Shown piece by piece: positions 20,129 to 33,143 of a stretch of DNA of 64,000 nucleotides. Source of the stretch: Eubacteriaceae bacterium ES3 (lineage in GTDB: Bacteria; Bacillota; Clostridia; Eubacteriales; Eubacteriaceae). The DNA lies in assembly GCA_030586155.1 (NCBI GenBank), contig CP130741.1:2722680-2786679 (forward strand), given 5' to 3'. A program made the position numbers and the translations under genes. The notes beneath the pieces were generated by a model. The model worked only from the letters and a program-made list of their open reading frames with translations. It was not told where the DNA came from and did no database searches. Within the stretch, counting starts at the first letter, position 1. Each line of letters starts with the position of its first letter.

Positions 20129-20986
20129 TTATACCAGTCCGTAGTATTCTTCCATGGTCAGGCCACTGTTATAAATATCGGTTGCCACATCAACCCCCAC
20201 ATAACGCAAATGCCAGGGTTCGTAGGAGTAACCGGTAATCCCAGTCTTTCCCTGGGGATAACGGATAATAAAACCATATTTATAAGCGTTCGCCTTTACA
20301 AATTGACCCTCCTCTGTTTGTCCAAAACTTTCCAGCAAGTCAAAACCGACTGACTCACTGGTCACATCCATAGCCAAGCCCAACTGATGTTCACTGGTTC
20401 CCGGCTTTGCACTGACCAGATCTGCCTCGGCTTGCCCATAAGTATCCACATTCCACTGGTATAAGTCAGCCTGGGTTTCATATGAACGATATCCCGAACA
20501 GCAGTATAAGGTAATCCCTTGATTTTGAGCCGCATTGAAAAGTTCAGTCAGTGCAGCTGCTGCCTCTGCCCGCATTTGTGTATCTCTTGTCGCCGGAAGA
20601 TCAAGCCAGGTGAGGTCATCAGGTATATAACTCGAAGATAAAGCGTACTGCTTGTTGGCAACCTGGGTAATACTGCCTTCTGTAAAAATCCCAGATGCCC
20701 CCAAACTGCCAGAGGACGTATCGGATGTTTGTACCTGAGTCTCTGTTTGAGTAGTCTCGTTTACCTCAGCGTTTTCTGTTGTTTGTGAGTTTGCTTCAGT
20801 CTGAGTAGTTATTGTAGTTGTATTTTTATTCTCGTTAGCCTGATTTTCACTTTCTGCAACGACCTGGTCATTAGCCTGCGACATCCTGTTATATACGTTC
20901 ACTGTTATTAATGTAATAATCAGCAAAACTATTAATAATAATCCAATCGTTGTGATCAGAAATTTTTTACGATTGACAATTCTCAT
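20129..20986 (-). CDS. D-alanyl-D-alanine carboxypeptidase, VanY-like (peptidase M15B)
   Basis: This is a membrane-anchored cell-wall peptidase that trims the terminal D-Ala of peptidoglycan stems. The N-terminus has one membrane helix (residues about 7-30), then a 60-residue Thr/Gln/Asn-rich linker, then the VanY domain. Zinc and catalytic residues are visible: CSGYRSYETQ, the SEHQLGLAMDV motif (His and Asp ligands) and the EPWHLRYVG motif (catalytic Glu and third ligand His). The 285-residue length is normal. It stands alone; no van regulatory genes are nearby, so a housekeeping role is likelier than resistance. Confidence 0.92.
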   Translation of the reverse strand: MRIVNRKKFLITTIGLLLIVLLIITLITVNVYNRMSQANDQVVAESENQANENKNTTTITTQTEANSQTTENAEVNETTQTETQVQTSDTSSGSLGASGIFTEGSITQVANKQYALSSSYIPDDLTWLDLPATRDTQMRAEAAAALTELFNAAQNQGITLYCCSGYRSYETQADLYQWNVDTYGQAEADLVSAKPGTSEHQLGLAMDVTSESVGFDLLESFGQTEEGQFVKANAYKYGFIIRYPQGKTGITGYSYEPWHLRYVGVDVATDIYNSGLTMEEYYGLV

Positions 20987-21084: not shown

Positions 21085-21306
21085 TCATTTAAATAATATC
21101 TTTGCTTTCATCAGATGCTTTCGAGACTCTTCCATTTTCTCAATAGCTATAGCTATCTCTTTTGCCACATCATCAAGATCAGTTCCTTCGAGCTTCTGCT
21201 GCCATTCAGCATAACCTTCTATATGACCAGCAGAATGGTTAATCCAATGAGCCAGTAAAACCTTAAATATTTCACGATCTTTTTCAAATTTCAACTGTTC
21301 TTCCAT
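21085..21306 (-). CDS. 73-residue protein homologous to the C-terminal domain of the His-rich protein at 24493
   Basis: The protein aligns along nearly its whole length with the last 65 residues of the His-rich protein: DREIFKVLLAHWINHSAGH here against DIEILTLLLDHWVAHNKDH there, then a W-x-x-K/Q segment, DVAKEI/DVAEEL, AIxxM and KHLxxAK. The invariant HWxxHxxxH histidines could bind a metal. It shares one base with the DUF3842 stop region and closes the cooT-DUF3842 unit. Function is unknown; nickel handling for CODH/ACS is inferred from the company it keeps. Confidence 0.72.
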   Translation of the reverse strand: MEEQLKFEKDREIFKVLLAHWINHSAGHIEGYAEWQQKLEGTDLDDVAKEIAIAIEKMEESRKHLMKAKILFK

Positions 21307-21728
21307 CAGGCATCACCCAGATTCAATTCCTTCTTAATCAGGGTCACTGCTTCTCTAATTTGCAGCAACAGTGGTTTTTCCTCCAGTGACACAATATGAT
21401 GATTTTCCGGTAAAATCGGAATGTATATCTTAATTCCTTCACTGTTACCAATCGCTTCTACCATTTTAGGCGTCACTTCACCCATCATTGAATTAGGAAT
21501 TGTCATCGCAATTGAACCAATAATGAAATCTGCTTTTTTTACTGATACCGAAATAGCATTTTCACCGGTTGCCCCTTTATTGGCACCTTTTTTAAGCATT
21601 GCCGCCGTGGCCAGAGCATTCGTACCCAGCCCATACACTTCAATATAAGACGGCATTTCTTCTTTTAAAATACCAACGATCCGGGAACCGATGCCGCCTC
21701 CCATCCCGTCAAGTACAACAATGTTCAT
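21306..21728 (-). CDS. DUF3842 family protein
   Basis: The 140-residue protein begins with a nucleotide-binding-like MNIVVLDGMGGGIGSRIVGIL, then GLGTNALATAAMLKKGANKGATGENAI and IGSIAMTIPNSMMGEVTPKMVEAI. This matches what I recall of DUF3842, a small clostridial family of unknown function. The Gly-rich N-terminus suggests a Rossmann-like fold. It begins 2 bases after the cooT stop and runs into the 73-residue gene, so all three are cotranscribed. Its conserved company suggests a role in nickel or CODH/ACS maturation, which is an inference. Confidence 0.75.
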   Translation of the reverse strand: MNIVVLDGMGGGIGSRIVGILKEEMPSYIEVYGLGTNALATAAMLKKGANKGATGENAISVSVKKADFIIGSIAMTIPNSMMGEVTPKMVEAIGNSEGIKIYIPILPENHHIVSLEEKPLLLQIREAVTLIKKELNLGDA

Positions 21729-21730
21729 AA

Positions 21731-21928
21731 TTAAACCGCTTTTTCCTCAATAATAATTTTATGGTTTAACAGTTTAACTTCCTTTAATTTCCCCTGTACG
21801 ATTTTAGTTCCGCCCAAAAGATCTGAAAGTGTCAAACTGCCATCGTCGTTAGGAATAATATCAACGACGTAATCCATAATTTTAGTTTCTCCTTCAGGAG
21901 TCAGTAAATATGCTGATGATTCACACAT
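21731..21928 (-). CDS. cooT: CooT family nickel-binding protein
   Basis: CooT is a small nickel-binding protein linked to CODH maturation. The 65-residue product begins MCESSAYLL, where Cys2 is the metal ligand of the family, followed by the beta-rich MDYVVDIIPNDDGSLTLSDLLGGTKIVQGKLKEVKLLNHKIIIEE. The ATG at 21928 has an excellent SD (AAAGGAGGCTGAGATC); an in-frame ATG 29 codons earlier would bury that SD in the gene and displace the Cys2. It heads a three-gene unit downstream of the second acsB with its own promoter. Confidence 0.87.
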   Translation of the reverse strand: MCESSAYLLTPEGETKIMDYVVDIIPNDDGSLTLSDLLGGTKIVQGKLKEVKLLNHKIIIEEKAV

Positions 21929-22070
21929 GATCTCAGCCTCCTTTCGTTTTTCATAATGGTCAGGTCTCAGATGCGCTTCAATCTGCAATTTTGCAAAACT
22001 ACTACACCTGTTCACAACTGTTTTGGCTTATTTGCTATTGCTTTTTTAATGCTTCTAAATACCTACTATC

Positions 22071-22098
22071 ATTATATCACAGCTTTAACCGATTCCAA
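22071..22098 (-). promoter_or_regulatory. predicted promoter of the cooT unit
   Basis: On the minus strand TTGGAA (22093-22098) and TATAAT (22071-22076) are 16 bases apart. It lies just after the terminator of acsB, so cooT can be expressed independently. Confidence 0.65.
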
Positions 22099-22117
22099 CA
22101 GATAAAGCTAACAGCTT

Positions 22118-22160
22118 AAAAAAGATTAAGACAATCCCAGAAATATTTTCCAGGATTGCC
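22118..22160 (-). terminator. terminator after the second acsB
   Basis: A 14-bp stem (22147-22160 with 22130-22143) containing three G-U pairs is followed on the minus strand by TTAATCTTTTTT, 43 bases after the acsB stop. Confidence 0.75.
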
Positions 22161-22202
22161 TTCAGACAATTTTTTGCTTTAACTGATTGTTTTTTCTTTA
22201 AA

Positions 22203-24338
22203 TTACATAATTGGATCCATGCCCAGCGCCGGATGTCCTTTTGATTCCAGGAATTCAAGAACACCTTCTGAATCAGAGGCAATAGTTTCATCACAAACCA
22301 TGTCAGCAAAATTTTCGATTCCGGTCATCTCCTGAACCGCTTTATTTAAACGTTCTGCAACGTCATCTTTCAGTTCTTTTGGCATCCAGACAATTCGTGA
22401 CAAACCGCCTTCAGCTGCCATGAATTTTTTGGAACCGATCAAAAACCTGCCATGTCCCATAAAGCCCGGTGTCTGAACGCCACCACCGGTCATTGAAGCC
22501 AGTTCGCCAAATGTCATACCTACCGGTGAAGCTTCGCCAAATTCACGGTTAACGATAATAACACCGTTTGCTTCCGGCATAATTCCACAGATACATTCAA
22601 AACAACCACAGGATGTCATTGGATCTTCAAGAATGGAGTACAGTGTTACCTGTTCAACAGCTCCCTGAGAGTCTCGTGACACTGCTTCATCAACTGAAGC
22701 CCATCGACCCAATTTTTCATCAATTGCTTGGCCTTTCACAACTGGTTGGTTAGGACCGGTTGGATCAAGTTCTTTTGTCGCTTTTGCGTCCAACCAGGAA
22801 ACTGCGCCACAAAGGCCCAAACGTTCCGGGGTTACAATACAAACGTGGCTTGGTGCAAATGACTGACATAAAAGACAAGTATAGAATTCATCAACACTCT
22901 CATCGGTCAAGGCATCCATACGTTCGTCTCGTTCAGCATAGATTGGCTTAACCATTTCTTCGCCTAAGCGTTTGACGTCCTCAGGATTCGTATAAATGGT
23001 TATCTGACATTTATCCACTACTTTATCAAATTCATCCCGCATTTTGGCGTATAGGACTTCCCCGATATGTTTTAAGCGGAAACCTTTTTCAAAAGCCTCT
23101 TTTGTCAGACGAATCCATGCAATATTTCTCTGTCCAACGTGCATTGCCCCTTCAATATAGTTCATAAAGTAATGAATACGTCTTTCCAGAACGGTTTCAA
23201 AATCTTTTTGCATTGCTTTTCCAGCTACTTCAACAACGACTCCCAACGGCAACCGAACAACATCAAGGTCTGCAAACTGGGCATCATCAATGTCAGGTCC
23301 CACAACTGTAATTTTATGGTCTTCCACATCTGCCAGGTCAATCATTTTGACCAGCTCCCAGCATTCAGTTCGATTTCCACCAAATTCGGCGAACATGGTA
23401 TCTTTTCGGACACGTTCGCCTTCAAAGGCAGATGCCACAGAAACAGGAACGTCGATTTTAGTTACTTTTATTTTAATTTCTCTGGCTTCCAGGGAAGTTT
23501 CTACAGTTTTCTCGTGGTCAGCCTGTGTCATTAAAGCGCCGGGAACTTCTGGTACCTCTACATCGGCAATGACCGGGAAACCAAGAGCAATGGCACCTGC
23601 ACCTACTGATACCACCACTTCGTCAATTGCTCCGAAGGTATTGACAAAAGCCGGAACTCGATCTTTGGTATAAGTCAGGAAGTCTGGCAATTTACCAGGT
23701 TCAACAGCGCCAAAGATAAGGGCTGCACGAATCGCCACTGACACAACATGAATGACAGAAGTCACATCATGTCCCAGCGGAATTACTCGATAGTCAAGAC
23801 CCATCTTGACACCACCTTCAACGGCCTGTTCAATAATATCGCCAACCATAAAGGTTAAAAGACCCTTTTCCTGATAGGATTTAACAATTGCTGCCAGTGA
23901 AGCCGCATCATCTGACTTACCTAACAGCACGGCAATCCCTGGGATATCACCGGTTACCAGAGGTACACCAAGGGATCTGATAATCGGATCAGGAACAAAA
24001 CCAATCCCTGCATCATCGGCATAGGGATCTCCATCAAGATATCGGATTGCTTCGATGATCTCTGCCCCTACTGCAGTTGCCAAACCAGCGTTTAAAGCTT
24101 CACCCAGATCGTCCTTATTGGTAATCAGACTTTTTAAAATATCTACTGCAGCTGGTAGGTCGCCAAGAGTTTTAATTTTTACACCTGTTGCCGCGTATAT
24201 AATCGGCAAACAATAGGCTGTATCGGGATAGATAACCGCCTTGTCGGCGCCATACTTTTCAATGGCATCCTTTACAGCCCCTTCTGTCAACCCCGCAACA
24301 GCGTTAGAACCCGCATAAATCAAATCAGTTAAACTCAT
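22203..24338 (-). CDS. acsB: acetyl-CoA synthase subunit, second copy (711 aa)
   Basis: ACS joins a methyl group from the corrinoid protein, CO and CoA into acetyl-CoA at the Ni-Ni-Fe4S4 A-cluster. All A-cluster cysteines are present in CLLCQSF, HVCIV, GLCGAV and CGCFEC; by the count from the C-terminus the last two are Cys577 and Cys579. The last 340 residues differ from the first copy (28184-30370) at only about 13 positions, yet the N-terminal 370 residues, which contact CODH and form the CO channel in known complexes, are much more divergent and 17 residues shorter. It lies between the His-rich protein and cooT. It appears intact and functional. Confidence 0.95.
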   Translation of the reverse strand: MSLTDLIYAGSNAVAGLTEGAVKDAIEKYGADKAVIYPDTAYCLPIIYAATGVKIKTLGDLPAAVDILKSLITNKDDLGEALNAGLATAVGAEIIEAIRYLDGDPYADDAGIGFVPDPIIRSLGVPLVTGDIPGIAVLLGKSDDAASLAAIVKSYQEKGLLTFMVGDIIEQAVEGGVKMGLDYRVIPLGHDVTSVIHVVSVAIRAALIFGAVEPGKLPDFLTYTKDRVPAFVNTFGAIDEVVVSVGAGAIALGFPVIADVEVPEVPGALMTQADHEKTVETSLEAREIKIKVTKIDVPVSVASAFEGERVRKDTMFAEFGGNRTECWELVKMIDLADVEDHKITVVGPDIDDAQFADLDVVRLPLGVVVEVAGKAMQKDFETVLERRIHYFMNYIEGAMHVGQRNIAWIRLTKEAFEKGFRLKHIGEVLYAKMRDEFDKVVDKCQITIYTNPEDVKRLGEEMVKPIYAERDERMDALTDESVDEFYTCLLCQSFAPSHVCIVTPERLGLCGAVSWLDAKATKELDPTGPNQPVVKGQAIDEKLGRWASVDEAVSRDSQGAVEQVTLYSILEDPMTSCGCFECICGIMPEANGVIIVNREFGEASPVGMTFGELASMTGGGVQTPGFMGHGRFLIGSKKFMAAEGGLSRIVWMPKELKDDVAERLNKAVQEMTGIENFADMVCDETIASDSEGVLEFLESKGHPALGMDPIM

Positions 24339-24365
24339 TATTTTACTTCCCTTCCAAAGAAATTT

Positions 24366-24381
24366 GATACCTTCAGGTATC
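24366..24381 (-). other. small hairpin ahead of the second acsB start
   Basis: The arms GATACC and GGTATC flank a TGAA loop (minus-strand reading), directly upstream of the SD GGAAGGGAAG. A longer inverted repeat GAATCCATT/AATGGATTC flanks the middle of the same 154-base gap. These may shape the mRNA leader; I see no convincing promoter here. Confidence 0.4.
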
Positions 24382-24492
24382 TGTATAGTAAATGAGAATC
24401 CATTTAAGATGATGTTTTAAAAGCTTACATATAGCTACTATAAAACATTATGTTCATTTTTAATGGATTCCCGGTTCACACAATGTTTACTG

Positions 24493-25029
24493 TTAAATCT
24501 GTTTTTTTGCTTCCTGTAAATGTTTGTCAGCTTCGCTCATCAGGGCAATGGCTTCAATCAGCTCTTCGGCAACATCCTGTTTGCCCATTCGATTCATTTT
24601 TTCAACCCATAGGTTATATTCCATGGCATGATCCTTATTATGAGCCACCCAGTGATCCAAAAGCAGTGTAAGAATCTCTATATCCTTATTTTCATCGGCG
24701 CCTTCCAGTCCATGCTCGTGGCTATGACCATCATGACCGTGATCGTGAGAATGTCCATTGTGGTTGTGTTGATGTCCTTCATCATGGGCATGAGGGTGAG
24801 CGTGGCTATGTTTATGCTCGTGCTCGTGCGCCTGATCATGATGATGGTCTGTACCATGTTCGTGATCATCACTATGAGAATGGCTATGAACGTGCTCATG
24901 TTGATGAGAATGTTCTTCATGACTATGTTCATGGGCATGATTATGTTTACCGCAGCACCCCTCGTGAGAATGTGTTTTTGTATGTTCATGGCCTTCACTG
25001 CCACAACAATTTTTTTTATCTTGACACAT
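24493..25029 (-). CDS. His-rich metal-binding protein with a C-terminal HWxxHNxxH domain
   Basis: The first 112 of 178 residues are dominated by His with Asp, Glu and Ser, arranged as HxH repeats, and contain two CC pairs (NCCGS, GCCGKH). Such segments store or buffer nickel or zinc, as in HypB or SlyD-type proteins. Residues about 113-178 form a separate domain (ILTLLLDHWVAHNKDHAMEYNLWVEKM...DVAEELIEAIALM...KHLQEAKKQI) that recurs alone as the 73-residue gene at 21085. A strong SD (TAGGAGGTAATAATT) precedes the ATG. It directly precedes the second acsB, so a nickel reservoir for ACS or CODH is the likely role. Confidence 0.85.
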   Translation of the reverse strand: MCQDKKNCCGSEGHEHTKTHSHEGCCGKHNHAHEHSHEEHSHQHEHVHSHSHSDDHEHGTDHHHDQAHEHEHKHSHAHPHAHDEGHQHNHNGHSHDHGHDGHSHEHGLEGADENKDIEILTLLLDHWVAHNKDHAMEYNLWVEKMNRMGKQDVAEELIEAIALMSEADKHLQEAKKQI

Positions 25030-25299: not shown

Positions 25300-25389
25300 G
25301 TAAGCGTCAAATACAAACCACATAGAAAAGAAGCTCGACATATGAGATAATGATAAAAATCATCTCGCAAGTCGAACTTCTTTATTGGT

Positions 25390-27045
25390 TTATTGATGCT
25401 GATTAGTTTGGGCCAAGGACTGGCGGCAGATCTCGGGCAGCTGATCGGACCAGGGAAGAAAAGGTTCCAGTGCGACCTCGTCATCGCAGTTTATATCCGG
25501 CAGACGTTCAAAGAGAAATTTGAGATATTCATAAGGGTTGAGCTCATTAAGTTTGGCACTCTGGATCAGGCTGAAGGCAGTGGCGGAAGCTTTGGCACCA
25601 TTGGCTGTTTTACAGAAAAGAAAGTTTTTTCTGGCCACAACAAAAGGCTTGATCTGTTGTTCGGCAATGTTGGTGGAAAGTTCACATTGGCCGTCAAGCA
25701 AAATGTTTTCCAGTACAGTCTGGTGTTTGAGACTGTAGTTGAGCGCTTTTCCAAAGGCGCTTTTGGGAAGGGTATTCTGCGACATTAATTTTACCCATGC
25801 GAAATAAGCTGTCATCAGCGGTTTAAGCTCTTTTTCCCGTCGCTCCTTACGCTCTTTCGGGGTCAGGTCTTCTTTTAACAGCGCTTTCTCAAAGACAAAC
25901 ATTTCACCTATCATCTGAACGGCCTGCCAGGCTTCGGTTTCGGTTTTTATAGTCCCTTTTGGCAATGCTTTTAGCGCATCAGTGTATTGACGTCTGGCAT
26001 GGGCAAAGCAGCAGACCCGGGTAATATCGGTTACGCTGTTATAGCCGTCATAACCGTCCGTTTGAAGGATTCCTTTGAAATTTTCAAGGAAATTTTTGGG
26101 GTGTTTGCCACTCCGGGACGGCTGATATTCAAACAACGCCATGGGTTTTCCGTATTTCCCGGGACGATACAGCCACATATAGGCCTTGCTGGTACAGGCT
26201 TCCCCATCTTTAGTCAGAACTTTCAGTGATGTCTCATCAGCCATCAGAAAGCTTTCTTTTTCCAGATGTTTTTTCATCAGCCGGTAGAGGGGTTCAAGGT
26301 AACGCTCACTGCCTTTGATGATCCAGTTGGACATCGTCGCGCGGGACAGTTCAATGCCAAAGTGTTTAAAGGTCTGCTCCTGCCGGTAAAGAGGCAGGGC
26401 TGCCGCAAATTTCTGGTATAGAATATAAGCAAGCAGACTTGGCGAAACAAAGCTGCCCGAAATAACCGGATTGGGCGCTTTAGCTGTAATAATCGGCGTT
26501 TTGATCTCATGATCCTGACAGTGTCGGCAGGCATACACTTTTCTGACATGTTCCACCCGCACCACTTTGGCGGGAATCACTTTGAGCTCCTGGCGCACTT
26601 CCTCCTTCATCTGATGCAGTGAATGGTCACACACAGGGCATACTTTCTCATCTTCATTAAGATCATAAACAATGCGTTCAACCGGCAGATCATCAAAAGA
26701 ATCCCGGTTCAGTCCCCGCTTTTTACGGCGGTGGGTAGCCACTTCGATGGATGGTTCTTCCTGCTCAGGGCGTTTCGTCACCTCCGGCTCATTAAAAAAA
26801 GAGATCTGGTTTTCAATTATGACAGTGTCAGCGGATTTGCCGAAGCGCTTCTGGGCATTCAGACGCAACTGTTCTTCGTACCATTTAATTTTTGCCTGCG
26901 CTTCTTCAAGTTCTGAATTCAGCCGAGTGTTTTCACTCTGAAGTTCAGTGATGACAGATAAAAAATCCAGTGCCGGATCTTGTGTTTCTGTTTCTGTTAA
27001 ACTGTTTTCTTTACCCATCTGATGCTTATACCGCTTTCCTGTCAT
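25390..27045 (-). CDS. tnpC: IS66 transposase TnpC
   Basis: This is the DDE transposase of IS66 elements. The N-terminal 60 residues are a coiled coil (ITELQSENTRLNSELEEAQAKIKWYEEQL). Then follow RFGKSAD, a zinc-ribbon (CPVCDHSLHQ, CRHCQDHE) and the catalytic core with ADETSLKVL, LQTDGYDGYN and NIAEQQIKPFVVARKNFLF supplying the D, D and E residues. I use the ATG at 27045 with the SD TTGGAGTGGATA; a TTG four codons earlier overlaps that SD. The length of about 551 residues and intact motifs suggest an active enzyme. Confidence 0.95.
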   Translation of the reverse strand: MTGKRYKHQMGKENSLTETETQDPALDFLSVITELQSENTRLNSELEEAQAKIKWYEEQLRLNAQKRFGKSADTVIIENQISFFNEPEVTKRPEQEEPSIEVATHRRKKRGLNRDSFDDLPVERIVYDLNEDEKVCPVCDHSLHQMKEEVRQELKVIPAKVVRVEHVRKVYACRHCQDHEIKTPIITAKAPNPVISGSFVSPSLLAYILYQKFAAALPLYRQEQTFKHFGIELSRATMSNWIIKGSERYLEPLYRLMKKHLEKESFLMADETSLKVLTKDGEACTSKAYMWLYRPGKYGKPMALFEYQPSRSGKHPKNFLENFKGILQTDGYDGYNSVTDITRVCCFAHARRQYTDALKALPKGTIKTETEAWQAVQMIGEMFVFEKALLKEDLTPKERKERREKELKPLMTAYFAWVKLMSQNTLPKSAFGKALNYSLKHQTVLENILLDGQCELSTNIAEQQIKPFVVARKNFLFCKTANGAKASATAFSLIQSAKLNELNPYEYLKFLFERLPDINCDDEVALEPFLPWSDQLPEICRQSLAQTNQHQ

Positions 27046-27144
27046 TATCCACTCCAATTACTTATGATTGGCATAATATCGCCGTTTTATGATGCTATTA
27101 TACCATAGATCAGCTGACAAAAAAAGCTTTTTCAACCTTATTTT

Positions 27145-27501
27145 TCAGATTAAAATCCGCTGTTTCACTGGCGGATGCGCCTGTTTTTCATCAAGGGTCA
27201 GTCCATCCAGCAACCACCGGAAACTTCTTTCAGTCACAACAATGGAAGGGGCGCCACTTTTTTCCGGCCACTGGAAACAGCCGTTTTCCAGACGTTTATA
27301 ATGAATCCAGAAGCCGGTCTGATCCCATACCAGGATTTTAATCAGATTCCTGCGTTTATTGCAGAATGCAAACAGGTGCATGGAAAAGGGATCTTCTTTC
27401 AGAACTTCCCTGACAATCAGGGACAGTCCATCGATACTTTTTCTGAGATCGGTGGCTCCCAGAGCTATATGCACATTTCCGGAGTTGAGGCCTGTCAACA
27501 T
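27145..27501 (-). CDS. tnpB: IS66 accessory protein TnpB
   Basis: The 118-residue protein carries the IS66 Orf2 signature: VHIALGATDLRKSIDGLSLIV, LFAFCNKRRNLIKILVWDQTGFWIHYKRLE and FRWLLDGL. TnpB is needed for IS66 transposition but its biochemical role is unclear. It follows tnpA by 3 bases. Confidence 0.95.
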   Translation of the reverse strand: MLTGLNSGNVHIALGATDLRKSIDGLSLIVREVLKEDPFSMHLFAFCNKRRNLIKILVWDQTGFWIHYKRLENGCFQWPEKSGAPSIVVTERSFRWLLDGLTLDEKQAHPPVKQRILI

Positions 27502-27504
27502 GGA

Positions 27505-27864
27505 TCAGGCCTTTCTGATTGCGCTAATTATATTTGTAAGATGATTCTCTGAAAATTCAGGCGGTATCATAACAACCACATCTGAAATCCGGATTTCTAT
27601 TACTTTTGGGGTTCCAGATAAAGGTTTTTTAAATGATATTTCCGGCGCAATAACAATTCCGGCAAAGTTGACTGTTTCTTCGGCAAACTCCTGGGGTTCC
27701 AGATCATTTAGATCCCGGTTTGCTTTGCTGATTCTCAGTTTCCAGTATCGGAATGCACTCAAAGCAAGATTATTCTTTTCGCACCACTGCCGCTGCGTCA
27801 GTCCACTTGCCAATTGTGCTTTGATCCGCTCTTCCCAGAGTATCCGATTTTCACTTTTCTCCAT
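27505..27864 (-). CDS. tnpA: IS66 accessory protein TnpA
   Basis: The 119-residue protein has the N-terminal helix-turn-helix-like region of IS66 Orf1 (WEERIKAQLASGLTQRQWCEKNNLALSAFRYWKLRI) followed by a variable linker and a C-terminal strand-rich segment (VIEIRISDVVVMIPPEF). It is the first gene of the element. Confidence 0.92.
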   Translation of the reverse strand: MEKSENRILWEERIKAQLASGLTQRQWCEKNNLALSAFRYWKLRISKANRDLNDLEPQEFAEETVNFAGIVIAPEISFKKPLSGTPKVIEIRISDVVVMIPPEFSENHLTNIISAIRKA

Positions 27865-27951
27865 AAAAAATACAATCCTTCCTTTAATAGTTTGAAAGAA
27901 TTGTATCAGTTTTTTTATTTGGTTGGTATGTGGTCTGTAATTGACGCTTAC

Positions 27952-28183: not shown

Positions 28184-30370
28184 TTACATAATTGGATCCA
28201 TGCCCAGAGCAGGATGTCCTTTTGATTCCAGGAATTCTAAAACGCCTTCAGAATCAGAAGCAATTGTTTCATCACAAACCATGTCTGCGAAGTTTTCAAT
28301 ACCAGTCAATTCTTTAACTGCTTTATTTAAACGTTCTGCAACATCATCTTTCAGTTCTTTTGGCATCCAGACAATTCGAGACAGACCACCTTCAGCAGCC
28401 ATGAATTTTTTAGAACCAATCAGGAATCGACCATGACCCATGAAACCTGGTGTTTGAACTCCACCACCGGTCATAGAGGCCAGTTCACCGAATGTCATAC
28501 CAACTGGAGATGTATCGCCGAATTCTCGGTTAACAATGATAACGCCATTCGCTTCAGGCATAATACCACAGATACATTCGAAACATCCACAAGAAGTCAT
28601 TGGGTCTTCAAGAATTGAGTACAATGTTACATTTTCAACGGCACCCTGAGAGTTTGTGGCAACTGCTTCGTCAACTGAAGCCCATCGACCCAGTTTTTCA
28701 TCAATTGCTTCGCCTTTTACAACAGGCTGGTTAGGTCCGGTTGGGTCAAGTTCTTTAGTCGCTTTAGCATCCAACCAGGAAACCGCACCACAAAGACCTA
28801 AACGTTCTGGTGTTACGATACAAACGTGGCTAGGAGCAAATGACTGACATAACAGACAGGTATAGAATTCATCAACACTTTCATCTGTCAGAGCATCCAT
28901 ACGTTCGTCACGTTCAGCGTAAATTGGTTTAACCAGTTCTTCACCAAGTCTTTTAACGTCTTCTGGATTAGTGTAGATGGTTACCTGACATTTATCAACA
29001 ACTTTGTCAAATTCATCACGCATTTTTGCGTAAAGTACTTCACCAATATGTTTTAAACGGAAACCTTTTTCAAAAGCCTCTTTAGTTAACCGAATCCATA
29101 CGATATTTCTCTGACCAACATGCATTGCACCTTCAACATAGTTCATGAAGTAGTGAATACGTCGTTCCAGAACAGTTTCGAAGTCTTTCTGCATTGCTTT
29201 ACCAGCAACTTCAACTTTAACACCTAAAGGCAAACGAACAACTTTGCCTTCTTCAAGGTTTTCATCGATATCAGGTCCGATAACTGTGATTTTATGATCT
29301 TCAATTTCTGCTAAATCGCCGGTTGTAACCAATTCCCAGCTTTCTGTTCTGTTTCCGCCGAATTCAGCGAACATGGTATCTTTACGAACTCGTTCACCTT
29401 CGAAAGCTGAAGAAACAGCAACTGGACAATCAATTTCTGTAACTTTAATTTTAATATTTCGAGCTTCTAAAGAAGTTGCTACAACTTTGTCATAATCTGG
29501 TTGATTTAATAACAGGGTTGGAACTTCGTTGATATATGTTTCTGTAGTTGCAGGGAAACCAAGTTCGATCGCAGCTGCACCAGCAGCGATGATTTTATTA
29601 TCCCAATCGCCAAATACATTAACAAATGCTTTAACACGATCTTTTGTATAAGTACGGTGTTTCAGGAAGTCGCCTGGAGGTGTAGCACCAAAAATCAAGC
29701 TTGCTCTAAGAGCAACTGAAACAACGTGGATTACTGATTCAATTTCTAATCCCAATGGGATAACTCGAAGGTCAATACCCATTTTGATATTTTGTTCAAC
29801 AGCCTGGTCGATTACTTTACCAACCATGAAAGTCAGAAGACCTTTTCCCTGATAATCTTTAACAATGTTTGCTAAGGTTTCAGAGTCTTTTGCTTCCCCG
29901 ATAATAACGGCTACACCTGGGATATCCTGAGTTACCAGTGGTACACCGAAAGATCGGATTTCAGCATCTGTTAAGTTACCTAAGTAACGGTCAGCACCGG
30001 TATTTAAACCTTCGGCATTAATATCTTCAACTTTACGTCCAGCATAAGGTGCTTCATCATAAACAAATTTAACTGCTTCGATAATTTCAGCAAACATTGC
30101 TGAAGCAGTACCAGCGTCTAATGCATCCTGCAGGTAAGGGGTACGGTGTACCTTTTCTTTTGCCAGTTCCAGAGCTTTTTCAAGTTCACCAACATTAGTG
30201 ATTTTTTCACCAGTAATAGCATAAATACAAGGAAGTGCATAAGCAGTTCCAGGGAATTTAACCGCGGTTTCTTTTCCTTTTTCAGCAACGACTTTTGCTA
30301 CGGCTTCTTCTGCCCGTTTCTGGTATTGAGCCTGACCGTCGTAGATTATATCAAAAAGATTCATATTCAT
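28184..30370 (-). CDS. acsB: acetyl-CoA synthase subunit of CODH/ACS (728 aa)
   Basis: This is the main ACS gene, last of the acsDCE-acsA-cooC-acsB run. Counting from the C-terminus, the A-cluster cysteines are at 505, 508, 517, 527, 594 and 596, one residue less than the standard Moorella numbering, and the gating Phe is at 511. The N-terminal 310 residues form the CODH-contacting domain with DLRVIPLG and SVIHVVSVALRASLIFGA. The start ATG at 30370 has a perfect SD (AAGGAGGAAAAAGTCCAT). The 728-residue length is normal. Together with AcsA it makes acetyl-CoA and CO in the cytoplasm. Confidence 0.98.
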   Translation of the reverse strand: MNMNLFDIIYDGQAQYQKRAEEAVAKVVAEKGKETAVKFPGTAYALPCIYAITGEKITNVGELEKALELAKEKVHRTPYLQDALDAGTASAMFAEIIEAVKFVYDEAPYAGRKVEDINAEGLNTGADRYLGNLTDAEIRSFGVPLVTQDIPGVAVIIGEAKDSETLANIVKDYQGKGLLTFMVGKVIDQAVEQNIKMGIDLRVIPLGLEIESVIHVVSVALRASLIFGATPPGDFLKHRTYTKDRVKAFVNVFGDWDNKIIAAGAAAIELGFPATTETYINEVPTLLLNQPDYDKVVATSLEARNIKIKVTEIDCPVAVSSAFEGERVRKDTMFAEFGGNRTESWELVTTGDLAEIEDHKITVIGPDIDENLEEGKVVRLPLGVKVEVAGKAMQKDFETVLERRIHYFMNYVEGAMHVGQRNIVWIRLTKEAFEKGFRLKHIGEVLYAKMRDEFDKVVDKCQVTIYTNPEDVKRLGEELVKPIYAERDERMDALTDESVDEFYTCLLCQSFAPSHVCIVTPERLGLCGAVSWLDAKATKELDPTGPNQPVVKGEAIDEKLGRWASVDEAVATNSQGAVENVTLYSILEDPMTSCGCFECICGIMPEANGVIIVNREFGDTSPVGMTFGELASMTGGGVQTPGFMGHGRFLIGSKKFMAAEGGLSRIVWMPKELKDDVAERLNKAVKELTGIENFADMVCDETIASDSEGVLEFLESKGHPALGMDPIM

Positions 30371-31235: not shown

Positions 31236-33143
31236 TTAAATTCCTAAACCAACTCGTTTAGCTTCAATATCTTCCATAATTTTGTCAACCATTACCATAG
31301 GATCTTTTTCGAATACGAAATGAGCTCCCAGGAATTCATGACAATCTTCAGTTAACAGTTTTGTGAAGTTTGGTGAACCAAGAACCTGAGGAATAACACC
31401 CAGATATGTATTGATACCAGAACCAACAACGTAGTTAGCAATTGAAACAGCTTTTTCTGACATCCACTCAGGGGCAATACCAACAACTGGCAGTAAAGCT
31501 GGATCGATGTCTTTTTCTTCGGCACATAAGTTAACCAGTACCAGGATTCGGCTGATATCAACACAAGAACCCATATGCAGCACAGGAGGAATGTTTACAC
31601 GTTCACAGACTTCTTTCAGTCCTCGTCCACATCGTTCTTTCGCTTCTAAAGTTAATAGACCTGCTTTAGCTGCCGCCTGAGCTGCACAACCTGTAGCAAC
31701 ACAGATTACATCGCGTTTGATCAGTTCTTCCATTACTCTGATATGAGCTACATCATGTGTCTGTTTTGGATTGTTACAACCAACAACACCGGCGGCTCCA
31801 CGAAGAACACCTGCGTAAATAACGTCAGTTAATGGTTTAACACCACCCATTTCATCTTCAGTGTTTGTGTTTACTACTTTATCTAAATGATCAATTATTG
31901 TTTCTACTGAATATCCAACCATTGTAGGCATTTTGAAATCTGGAATTTCAACTTTTTCCTGAACTCGGTTAGGGTAATTCTCAATCGCGATTTTTACGAT
32001 TTCTTTAGCGTTTTCCAGACCAGTTTCTTCAGAAAATTCAATGTACATATCGCCAGCAATTTTTGCTTTCTGAGAAGTAGAAATGAATCGGGTATGGTAA
32101 GTTTTAGCCAGCGCTGGAAGAGCTGGGAAAATACACTGTACGTCAACTACTGCAGCTTCGATAGCACCAGTAATGATACACATTTCCTGCTGATAGAAGT
32201 TACCGGCAATTTTAACACCGTGACGCATTGTTAACTCATTACCTGTACAACACATACCAACAAGGTTAATACCTTTAGCACCTTTTTCTTTAGCTAATGC
32301 AACCATGTCAGGATCCTGAGAAGCTAAAACAATCATTTCGGCAAGGTTTGGATCATGTCCGTGGATCAAAATGTTAACCTGATCACCGCTGATACATCCT
32401 AAGTTAGATTCTGTTGGTTTTGCTGTTGGTGTTCCATATAAAATATCAGAGAATTCAGTACCGATCATGGAACCGCCCCAGCCATCAGCCATCCCGGTTC
32501 TCATGCCGCGTCGGAATAAGCTTTCATAGTCTGAAGCACAACCGATATGGGTAGAGTGCATCAGAGTTGTTACTTCCATATCAACTGCTCGAGGTGCAAT
32601 ATTTTCTCTTTCCCAAATTTCCTGTCGAGCCTTAGGTGCACGAGTAAGGAATCTCTGAGTTCCAAAAGGTTTTCCGAATTCTTCCAGAGCGATTTCTGCT
32701 ACTTCATGAGCCAGTGCATAAGTTTCTCTAGTCTCAGCGTCTTCGATTCCCCATTCTTTAGCAACAACCCGAAGTTTCTTTTCATCTCTAATTTTGAAAG
32801 GACCTTCAGCTTTTGCAGCATGCATAGCATGAACAATATCTCGAGCATGGTCAGAGTGGGCTGAACATCCACCAGCTACCATACGGGCAAAGTTTCTGGC
32901 TACAATGGTATCAGCGTTAGCGCCACAAATACCTCTTTGAGCCCCTTTACCAGGAGTCGGACTTACACGACAAGGTCCCATTGCACAAATTCGACAACAT
33001 ACACCAGCTTCTCCAAAACCACACTGGGTTTTCTGCGCCGCTTTACGATCCCATAAAGTTTCTGCGCCATCTTTTTGAGCTTTTGCGAGTAAAGCTTCAG
33101 CTGTAACATCACTTTTCAACAATTCATTGATATTATTGCTCAT
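31236..33143 (-). CDS. acsA: carbon-monoxide dehydrogenase catalytic subunit (CODH)
   Basis: AcsA reduces CO2 to CO at the Ni-Fe-S C-cluster. The N-terminal Fe-S ligands are Cys41, Cys49, Cys50, Cys53 and Cys58 (QCGFGEAGVCCRICAMGPC), which hold the D and B clusters. Further hallmarks are ARNFARMVAGGCSAHSDH, the THIGCASDYESL region carrying the C-cluster His, and later cysteine motifs CCTGNE, GCNNPK, ATGCAAQAAAKAG and HMGSCVDISR. The 635-residue length matches CooS/AcsA proteins. It is expected to form the core dimer with AcsB. A 250-base gap separates it from acsE and may hold its own promoter. Confidence 0.98.
   Translation of the reverse strand: MSNNINELLKSDVTAEALLAKAQKDGAETLWDRKAAQKTQCGFGEAGVCCRICAMGPCRVSPTPGKGAQRGICGANADTIVARNFARMVAGGCSAHSDHARDIVHAMHAAKAEGPFKIRDEKKLRVVAKEWGIEDAETRETYALAHEVAEIALEEFGKPFGTQRFLTRAPKARQEIWERENIAPRAVDMEVTTLMHSTHIGCASDYESLFRRGMRTGMADGWGGSMIGTEFSDILYGTPTAKPTESNLGCISGDQVNILIHGHDPNLAEMIVLASQDPDMVALAKEKGAKGINLVGMCCTGNELTMRHGVKIAGNFYQQEMCIITGAIEAAVVDVQCIFPALPALAKTYHTRFISTSQKAKIAGDMYIEFSEETGLENAKEIVKIAIENYPNRVQEKVEIPDFKMPTMVGYSVETIIDHLDKVVNTNTEDEMGGVKPLTDVIYAGVLRGAAGVVGCNNPKQTHDVAHIRVMEELIKRDVICVATGCAAQAAAKAGLLTLEAKERCGRGLKEVCERVNIPPVLHMGSCVDISRILVLVNLCAEEKDIDPALLPVVGIAPEWMSEKAVSIANYVVGSGINTYLGVIPQVLGSPNFTKLLTEDCHEFLGAHFVFEKDPMVMVDKIMEDIEAKRVGLGI

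Follow-up and report, generated by a model that had tools for sequence, protein, structure and literature searches.

The tail of the acs operon

The DNA considered here, called the window below, is a stretch of 64,000 nucleotides from Eubacteriaceae bacterium ES3 (GenBank assembly GCA_030586155.1, contig CP130741.1, positions 2,722,680 to 2,786,679), and the subject is a set of five minus-strand genes at window positions 25029 to 21085 that includes a second gene for acetyl-CoA synthase (ACS) and lies behind the acs cluster for ACS and carbon monoxide dehydrogenase (CODH). First in the direction of transcription is an open reading frame for a histidine-rich, CooJ-like protein of 178 amino acids (25029-24493), with an N-terminal histidine tract and a C-terminal domain containing HWx2Hx3H. 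It is followed by acsB2 (24338-22203), whose product of 711 amino acids scores 1069.9 bits against NF040764 (cut-off 800), is also matched by Pfam, has an N-terminal domain of a second type and retains all six A-cluster cysteines (C488, C491, C500, C510, C577 and C579), positions that we take to match the Moorella numbering. The third gene, cooT (21928-21731), encodes 65 amino acids from an ATG preceded by AAGGAGG; the protein begins MCESS, with Cys2 in place, and matches PF10133 at 75.4 bits (cut-off 27). A DUF3842 gene (21728-21306; PF12953, 165.5 bits, over cut-off) and a gene for a mini-protein of 73 amino acids (21306-21085) complete the set. The original prediction, made from the letters alone, had described this order, an intact acsB, and homology of the mini-protein to the C-terminal domain of the histidine-rich protein, all of which the reading frames and family scans confirm.

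The acs cluster itself contains another ACS gene, acsB1 (28184-30370, minus strand, 728 amino acids), and the CODH gene acsA (31236-33143, minus strand; TIGR01702). The five genes had been placed directly behind this cluster; they are indeed behind it, but not directly, as an IS66 element (25300-27951, minus strand; NF033517) with terminal inverted repeats beginning GTAAGCGTCAA and an 8-bp target duplication, CTATGTTT, sits between acsB1 and the histidine-rich gene and splits the operon. This insertion looks young because the six copies in the genome, including that of the window, are identical over the 1601 bases compared.

Comparison with relatives indicates what kind of set this is. The DUF3842 locus is present in 17 of 18 relatives within the genus, and in 13 of these 17 an acsB, counted as acsB2, directly precedes cooT (the contigs of G008 and G009 end within this gene, and G008 is counted by position only). 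The other four (G013, G015, G016 and G017) have the order acsB1, CooJ-like gene, cooT, DUF3842 and mini-protein gene without acsB2, as do all seven genomes of genera g3 and g4, and in A. woodii, A. wieringae, E. callanderi and E. barkeri the operon has a single acsB with the nickel genes behind it. The proposal of a package made up of acsB2 and nickel genes is not supported by this comparison: the arrangement is the ordinary tail of an acs operon, likely its maturation tail. Outside the genus, one Eubacteriaceae metagenome-assembled genome (MAG; G029) possesses acsB2, with the histidine-rich frame running into it, and family f76 (L192, L193) has a single operon ordered DUF3842-CooT-orf-mini-CooT-acsA-cooC-acsB1-cooC-acsD-acsC-acsE-acsB2-acsV.

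Mosaic paralogues of acetyl-CoA synthase

Overall identity between the window's AcsB1 and AcsB2 proteins is 75%, a figure composed of 54% over residues 1-312, 75% over residues 313-385 and 96% thereafter. The eight Acetobacterium pairs tabulated (those of G010 and G014 fall outside the table) likewise share 52-54% of N-terminal and 82-96% of C-terminal residues. The trees, which are quick trees without bootstrap, separate the two parts further. For the N-terminal domain, the B2 sequences of the genus group with those of G029 and family f76 (SH-like approximate likelihood ratio test, SH-aLRT, 99; 97 with acsB3 added) and the B1 sequences form a separate group (100), so that both types reach f76. 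For the C-terminal half, three lines of the genus have paralogues that cluster by lineage: the two genes of the window with the acsB2 of a sister MAG (99), the four copies of G003 and G005 (98), and the copies of G011 (81). The B2 sequences of G001, G002 and G018 form a separate group (91). Forcing the nine B2 C-terminal halves of the genus into one clade is 129 log units worse (approximately unbiased, AU, test, p 1.7e-5), and in the analysis with acsB3 the AU p is 2.0e-4.

We conclude from these sequences that the catalytic half of ACS appears to have been recurrently gene-converted, with the N-terminal part spared; recurrence is argued because the test rejects placing the acsB2 catalytic halves in one clade. 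Codon usage lends some support, since the share of identical residues encoded by the same codon rises from the N-terminal to the C-terminal half, from 47 to 61% in the window and from 51 to 74% in G011, though only from 42 to 49% in G002. A similar pattern is seen in the two genomes compared from the distant family f21 (loci L195-L198), where each of two ACS genes adjoins its own CODH-like gene: paralogues within a genome are 81-85% identical in the N-terminal part and 99-100% in the C-terminal, as against 95-96% in both parts between orthologues, which suggests converted C-terminal halves beside distinct N-terminal parts. The paralogues of L194 (family f4) stand at 57% and 90%, with no orthologue for comparison. 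In f76 the C-terminal halves of paralogues are 81% identical, as against 96-97% between orthologues, so that there has been no recent conversion there.

The presence in some acetogens of duplicate acsB genes inside or close to one acs cluster is already published: a second acsB was described in ES2 and ES3 as previously unreported in acetogens (PMC10625859), and two acsB genes had earlier been reported in isolate TWA4, B. hydrogenotrophica and R. obeum (PMC4275979). The mosaic structure, the N-domain types, acsB3 and the nickel genes do not figure in the available portions of these two papers. Among the matches listed by a literature search on ACS and gene conversion none was relevant, and the mosaic structure is new.

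The best solved relative of both paralogues is PDB entry 6ytt, the ACS of a CODH/ACS complex that is presumably from C. autoethanogenum. AcsB2 scores higher against it than AcsB1 (1053 versus 998 bits), and likewise against the N-terminal chain 6yua (387 versus 333 bits). As a separate observation, G072, G249 and G339 contain ACS-like open frames of 396-403 amino acids, too short to include the N-terminal domain, in addition to a full ACS.

A third gene, probably under separate control

Nine Acetobacterium genomes (L216-L223 and L225), among them A. woodii, possess a further ACS gene outside the acs cluster, acsB3; the window's genome has two ACS genes only and lacks it. The N-terminal domain of AcsB3 is 96-99% identical to AcsB2 of the same genome (four genomes with both) and 51-53% to AcsB1, whereas its C-terminal half is closer to AcsB1 (91-94%, eight genomes) than to AcsB2 (85-88%, four genomes). 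A similar regulator gene precedes acsB3 in all nine loci examined, identified by Pfam in two of them as a V4R sigma-54 activator, and a conserved -24/-12 site in each locus agrees with the pattern at 9-10 of 10 positions; of 500 base-composition shuffles, 0-3 score as high. In five stretches near acsB2 and the acs operon, the best sigma-54-like sites match 6-7 of 10 positions, as do many shuffles; the strict pattern is absent from the window, and promoter and terminator scans lie close to shuffles. The genus does appear to have a separately regulated ACS such as had been proposed, but it would be acsB3 and not acsB2, for which separate regulation is not supported.

Relatives of CooJ

The mini-protein and the C-terminal domain of the histidine-rich protein are 43% identical over 61 amino acids (two-sequence comparison, E 3e-15). 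Domains of this kind were aligned in a set of 14 sequences and a wider set of 18. In the wider set every row has His 24 and His 28 and nearly every row His 20, so that most read HWx2Hx3H; in a few, leucine replaces the tryptophan or the first histidine is absent. This agrees with the motif of CooJ, the nickel chaperone of CODH, H(W/F)x2Hx3H, a wording reportedly due to Alfano 2019, and the aligned stretch of the CooJ structure 6hk5 reads HFx2Hx3H. Against PDB sequences, the profile of 14 sequences found 6hk5 at E 0.39, tied with an unrelated viral fragment, and the wider profile ranked it first at E 0.006. The mini-protein is predicted with high confidence (predicted local distance difference test, pLDDT, 96.8) to form a helical hairpin, for which Foldseek gives 6hk5 as top match, at E 0.5. 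The two agree in core fold, with a template modelling (TM) score of 0.73 by query and 0.80-0.82 by target, root-mean-square deviation 1.3-2.0 and 21-23% identity. Pfam searched to E 10 gave no match for the mini-protein and two names for the histidine-rich protein, both at chance level.

Because of the profile match, the motif, the Foldseek match and the location beside cooT, we take the C-terminal domain and the mini-protein as CooJ cores. The histidine tract is at the N-terminus of the histidine-rich protein and absent from the mini-protein, whereas in CooJ it is C-terminal; the proteins are therefore filed as CooJ-related with swapped order and not as CooJ proper. Resemblance to the R. rubrum protein (6hk5; described in the available portion of PMC6006190) extends to the helical core with its motif, the histidine-rich tract, the place beside CooT and the CODH context. 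Differences, besides the position of the tract, are the second copy without a tract, linkage to an ACS cluster and, in one MAG, a frame continuous with ACS. That paper reports that R. rubrum mutants in cooC, cooT or cooJ require added nickel for growth on CO.

The frame in question (L124:6422-9355, in G029) comprises 978 codons and joins the histidine-rich CooJ-like domain to ACS2. It was dropped as decisive evidence of a natural fusion, since AAGGAGGA, a strong ribosome site, lies ahead of an ATG inside the frame where ACS begins; a stop codon may have been lost with initiation kept separate, and the frame, from one MAG, counts as weak support.

CooT and DUF3842

Cys2 of CooT, present in the window's protein, has been implicated in nickel binding (PMC6006190), and with CooT and CooJ-type domains together the set looks like a nickel-accessory one, as originally proposed. 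Distribution in the phylum supports the proposed tie to ACS. Among 348 sampled genomes, 104 have ACS and 244 lack it. The CooJ-like domain occurs in 15 of the former and 2 of the latter, and in all 14 genomes with both domain and ACS, the window's own excluded, the CooT match starts 12-70 bases behind the domain match. DUF3842 is found in 159 genomes (83 of 104 with ACS, 76 of 244 without) and CooT in 106, one of them under cut-off; 85 of the 104 ACS genomes contain CooT, and 100 of the 106 CooT genomes contain DUF3842. Fisher values on these counts are overstated, the sampled genomes being related. The original prediction had named a predominance in genomes without ACS as the result that would speak against it. 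For the CooJ-like domain the opposite holds, with 15 of 17 carriers possessing ACS, and DUF3842, with 76 of 159 carriers lacking ACS, comes only halfway to such a predominance.

DUF3842 is usually accompanied by CooT. In 56 of the best 80 (those named) of 489 confirmed DUF3842 loci, CooT lies within 300 bases on the same strand, and in 42 of 66 once the 14 loci nearest the window (L112-L125) are set aside; in 30 of the 56, CooT is downstream. A MAG of A. wieringae (L118:4664-10639) has a second CooT-DUF3842-mini triple directly behind a NikBCADE-like operon for a nickel-type ATP-binding cassette transporter, both permeases of which score over the NF045470 and NF045474 cut-offs while the binding protein and ATPases score under theirs. 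A locus of Heliorestis (L165) resembles this arrangement more weakly, with all matches under cut-offs.

The DUF3842 model, built with 68 sequences (pLDDT 94.2), predicts a single Rossmann-like domain with a DGxGGGIG-type loop. By sequence DUF3842 matches nothing in the PDB, and fold searches returned generic resemblances, the best being UbiX-like and dehydrogenase folds, with Foldseek TM scores by query of 0.38-0.55 among the matches listed. Invariant residues of the family alignment (A4) are Gly, Asp, Asn, Thr, Met, Ala, Glu and Pro, with neither His nor Cys among them. Fold and glycine loop are compatible with Rossmann nucleotide-binding proteins, and the most likely role of DUF3842 would be that of a nucleotide-binding helper of CooT.

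In seven genomes without an ACS match (G100, G139, G173, G228, G326, G348 and G369), the CooT match falls inside open frames of 266-300 amino acids, each within about 1.1 kb of DUF3842, and these frames are possible fusions.

Precedents for the nickel genes

In C. autoethanogenum, a histidine-rich gene (hp) and a CooT gene (nbp) lie as a pair immediately downstream of the acs cluster (PMC10230548). Deletion of hp (341 bp) or of cooT lowers ACS and CooS1 1.5-1.8-fold in each case, and both mutants show impaired growth in rich medium, though not in minimal-medium batch culture (PMC10230548). The available text of that paper does not mention CooJ (0 counts) and treats neither DUF3842 nor the mini-protein; the likeness of hp to the gene here is by description only. 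The thought that hp might be DUF3842 proved wrong, given that Hp is histidine-rich and its deletion spans 341 bp. Among CODH operons, CooT has also been found in 16% of those of clade E and 6.1% of those of clade F; for CooJ the share in clade E is 12% (PMC13056359, in the portion available).

The pairing of a histidine-rich protein with CooT is already published, and a histidine-rich gene beside cooT has been knocked out before, in C. autoethanogenum. Of the two new candidates originally put forward, the mini-domain belongs to the known CooJ core, and DUF3842 is the one on which a literature search found no paper. What is new, as read from sequence, is the mosaic evolution of ACS, the CooJ assignment with swapped order, the link between DUF3842 and CooT, and the probable sigma-54 control of acsB3.

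Interpretation

The last genes of the acs operon would, in our explanation, encode nickel handling for CODH and ACS. The histidine tract of the CooJ-type protein would hold nickel and its helical domain offer the HWx2Hx3H site, with CooT as a nickel-binding partner, DUF3842 as a Rossmann-domain partner and the mini-protein as a core without a tract. The acsB2 gene, between the CooJ-like gene and cooT, would represent an old second type of ACS, as judged by its N-terminal domain, and not a recent duplicate, its catalytic half having been exchanged repeatedly with that of acsB1. We infer that AcsB1 and AcsB2 perform the same chemistry and are loaded by the same nickel proteins. The N-terminal domain of ACS docks to CODH, and those of the two paralogues would differ in their docking target, be it the CODH of the cluster, another CODH or none. 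The f21 pairs, each ACS beside its own CODH-like gene, fit such docking. Taken as a whole, this explanation seems to us somewhat more probable than its failure.

Several points weigh against it. Orthologue pairs also gain codon likeness in the C-terminal half (for example from 61 to 66% and from 43 to 54%), and codon likeness is supporting evidence only because of this. A second structural aligner did not distinguish CooJ from other helical hairpins with the mini-protein model. Further, a pairing of acsB2 with the genome's second CODH finds no support in presence and absence in the window's family: in A. woodii, A. wieringae and G028 a second CODH is present although the operon lacks acsB2, and G029 and G003 show the reverse, acsB2 with no intact second CODH.

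These last observations lower the chances of a broader proposal, in which ACS would be modular, one catalytic half kept uniform by conversion being joined to two or more N-terminal docking domains to give AcsB1, AcsB2 and the sigma-54-controlled AcsB3; all would share their chemistry and a domain-swapped CooJ/CooT/DUF3842 nickel module and differ in CODH partner or in using free CO. This is tentative, and it would surprise us more to see it upheld than to see it fail.

Among the alternatives, the strongest is that acsB2 merely adds dosage and that its N-terminal differences are functionless drift, as might be thought from its absence from the operon in four of the 17 genus relatives with the locus, the single ACS in each of the seven genomes of g3 and g4, and its failure to track a second CODH. 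Drift would not, however, be expected to leave both N-terminal types in two families, nor B2 N-terminal domains that are 87-97% identical within the genus where compared, and A. woodii, with no acsB2 in its operon, retains the second type as acsB3. We regard simple dosage as unlikely.

Rather less likely is the reading first offered, that acsB2 with nickel genes of its own is an ACS regulated separately for nickel-poor or nickel-rich growth. Nickel genes do flank acsB2, the IS66 element cuts the stretch off from acsB1, so that another promoter may now serve, and a sigma-70-like site (25092-25064, 10 of 12 positions) lies just upstream of the histidine-rich gene. In relatives, however, the nickel genes follow acsB1 alone, promoter-like sites barely exceed those of shuffles (21 versus 16.2, standard deviation 3.4), and the regulatory signs in the genus belong to acsB3. 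The original interpretation was half right. Equally improbable is a role of the histidine-rich protein in zinc handling or general metal storage instead of nickel supply to ACS and CODH: histidine tracts bind several metals, but the homology to the CooJ core, the motif and the linkage to CooT and ACS all weigh against this. Least probable of all is that stronger selection on the catalytic half, without gene conversion, produced the mosaic, for although that half is more conserved in most comparisons (67% N-terminal and 80% C-terminal between AcsB1 of the window and an ACS of genus g3) and shows a higher share of common synonymous codons between orthologues as well, selection alone does not cluster paralogues of one lineage against their own orthologues, as is seen in the AU test and the f21 pairs.

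ACS maturation is poorly understood, and acetogens serve gas fermentation. The locus marks the histidine-rich and mini-proteins as relatives of CooJ and connects DUF3842, an unstudied family, with nickel proteins. It also makes the role of the N-terminal domain of ACS testable, given that some acetogens hold this domain in two versions on catalytic halves that are homogenised.

Downstream of the set, a gene for a VanY-type carboxypeptidase (20129-20986, minus strand; PF02557) is a frequent neighbour in the loci compared and is probably not a member of the nickel and ACS system.
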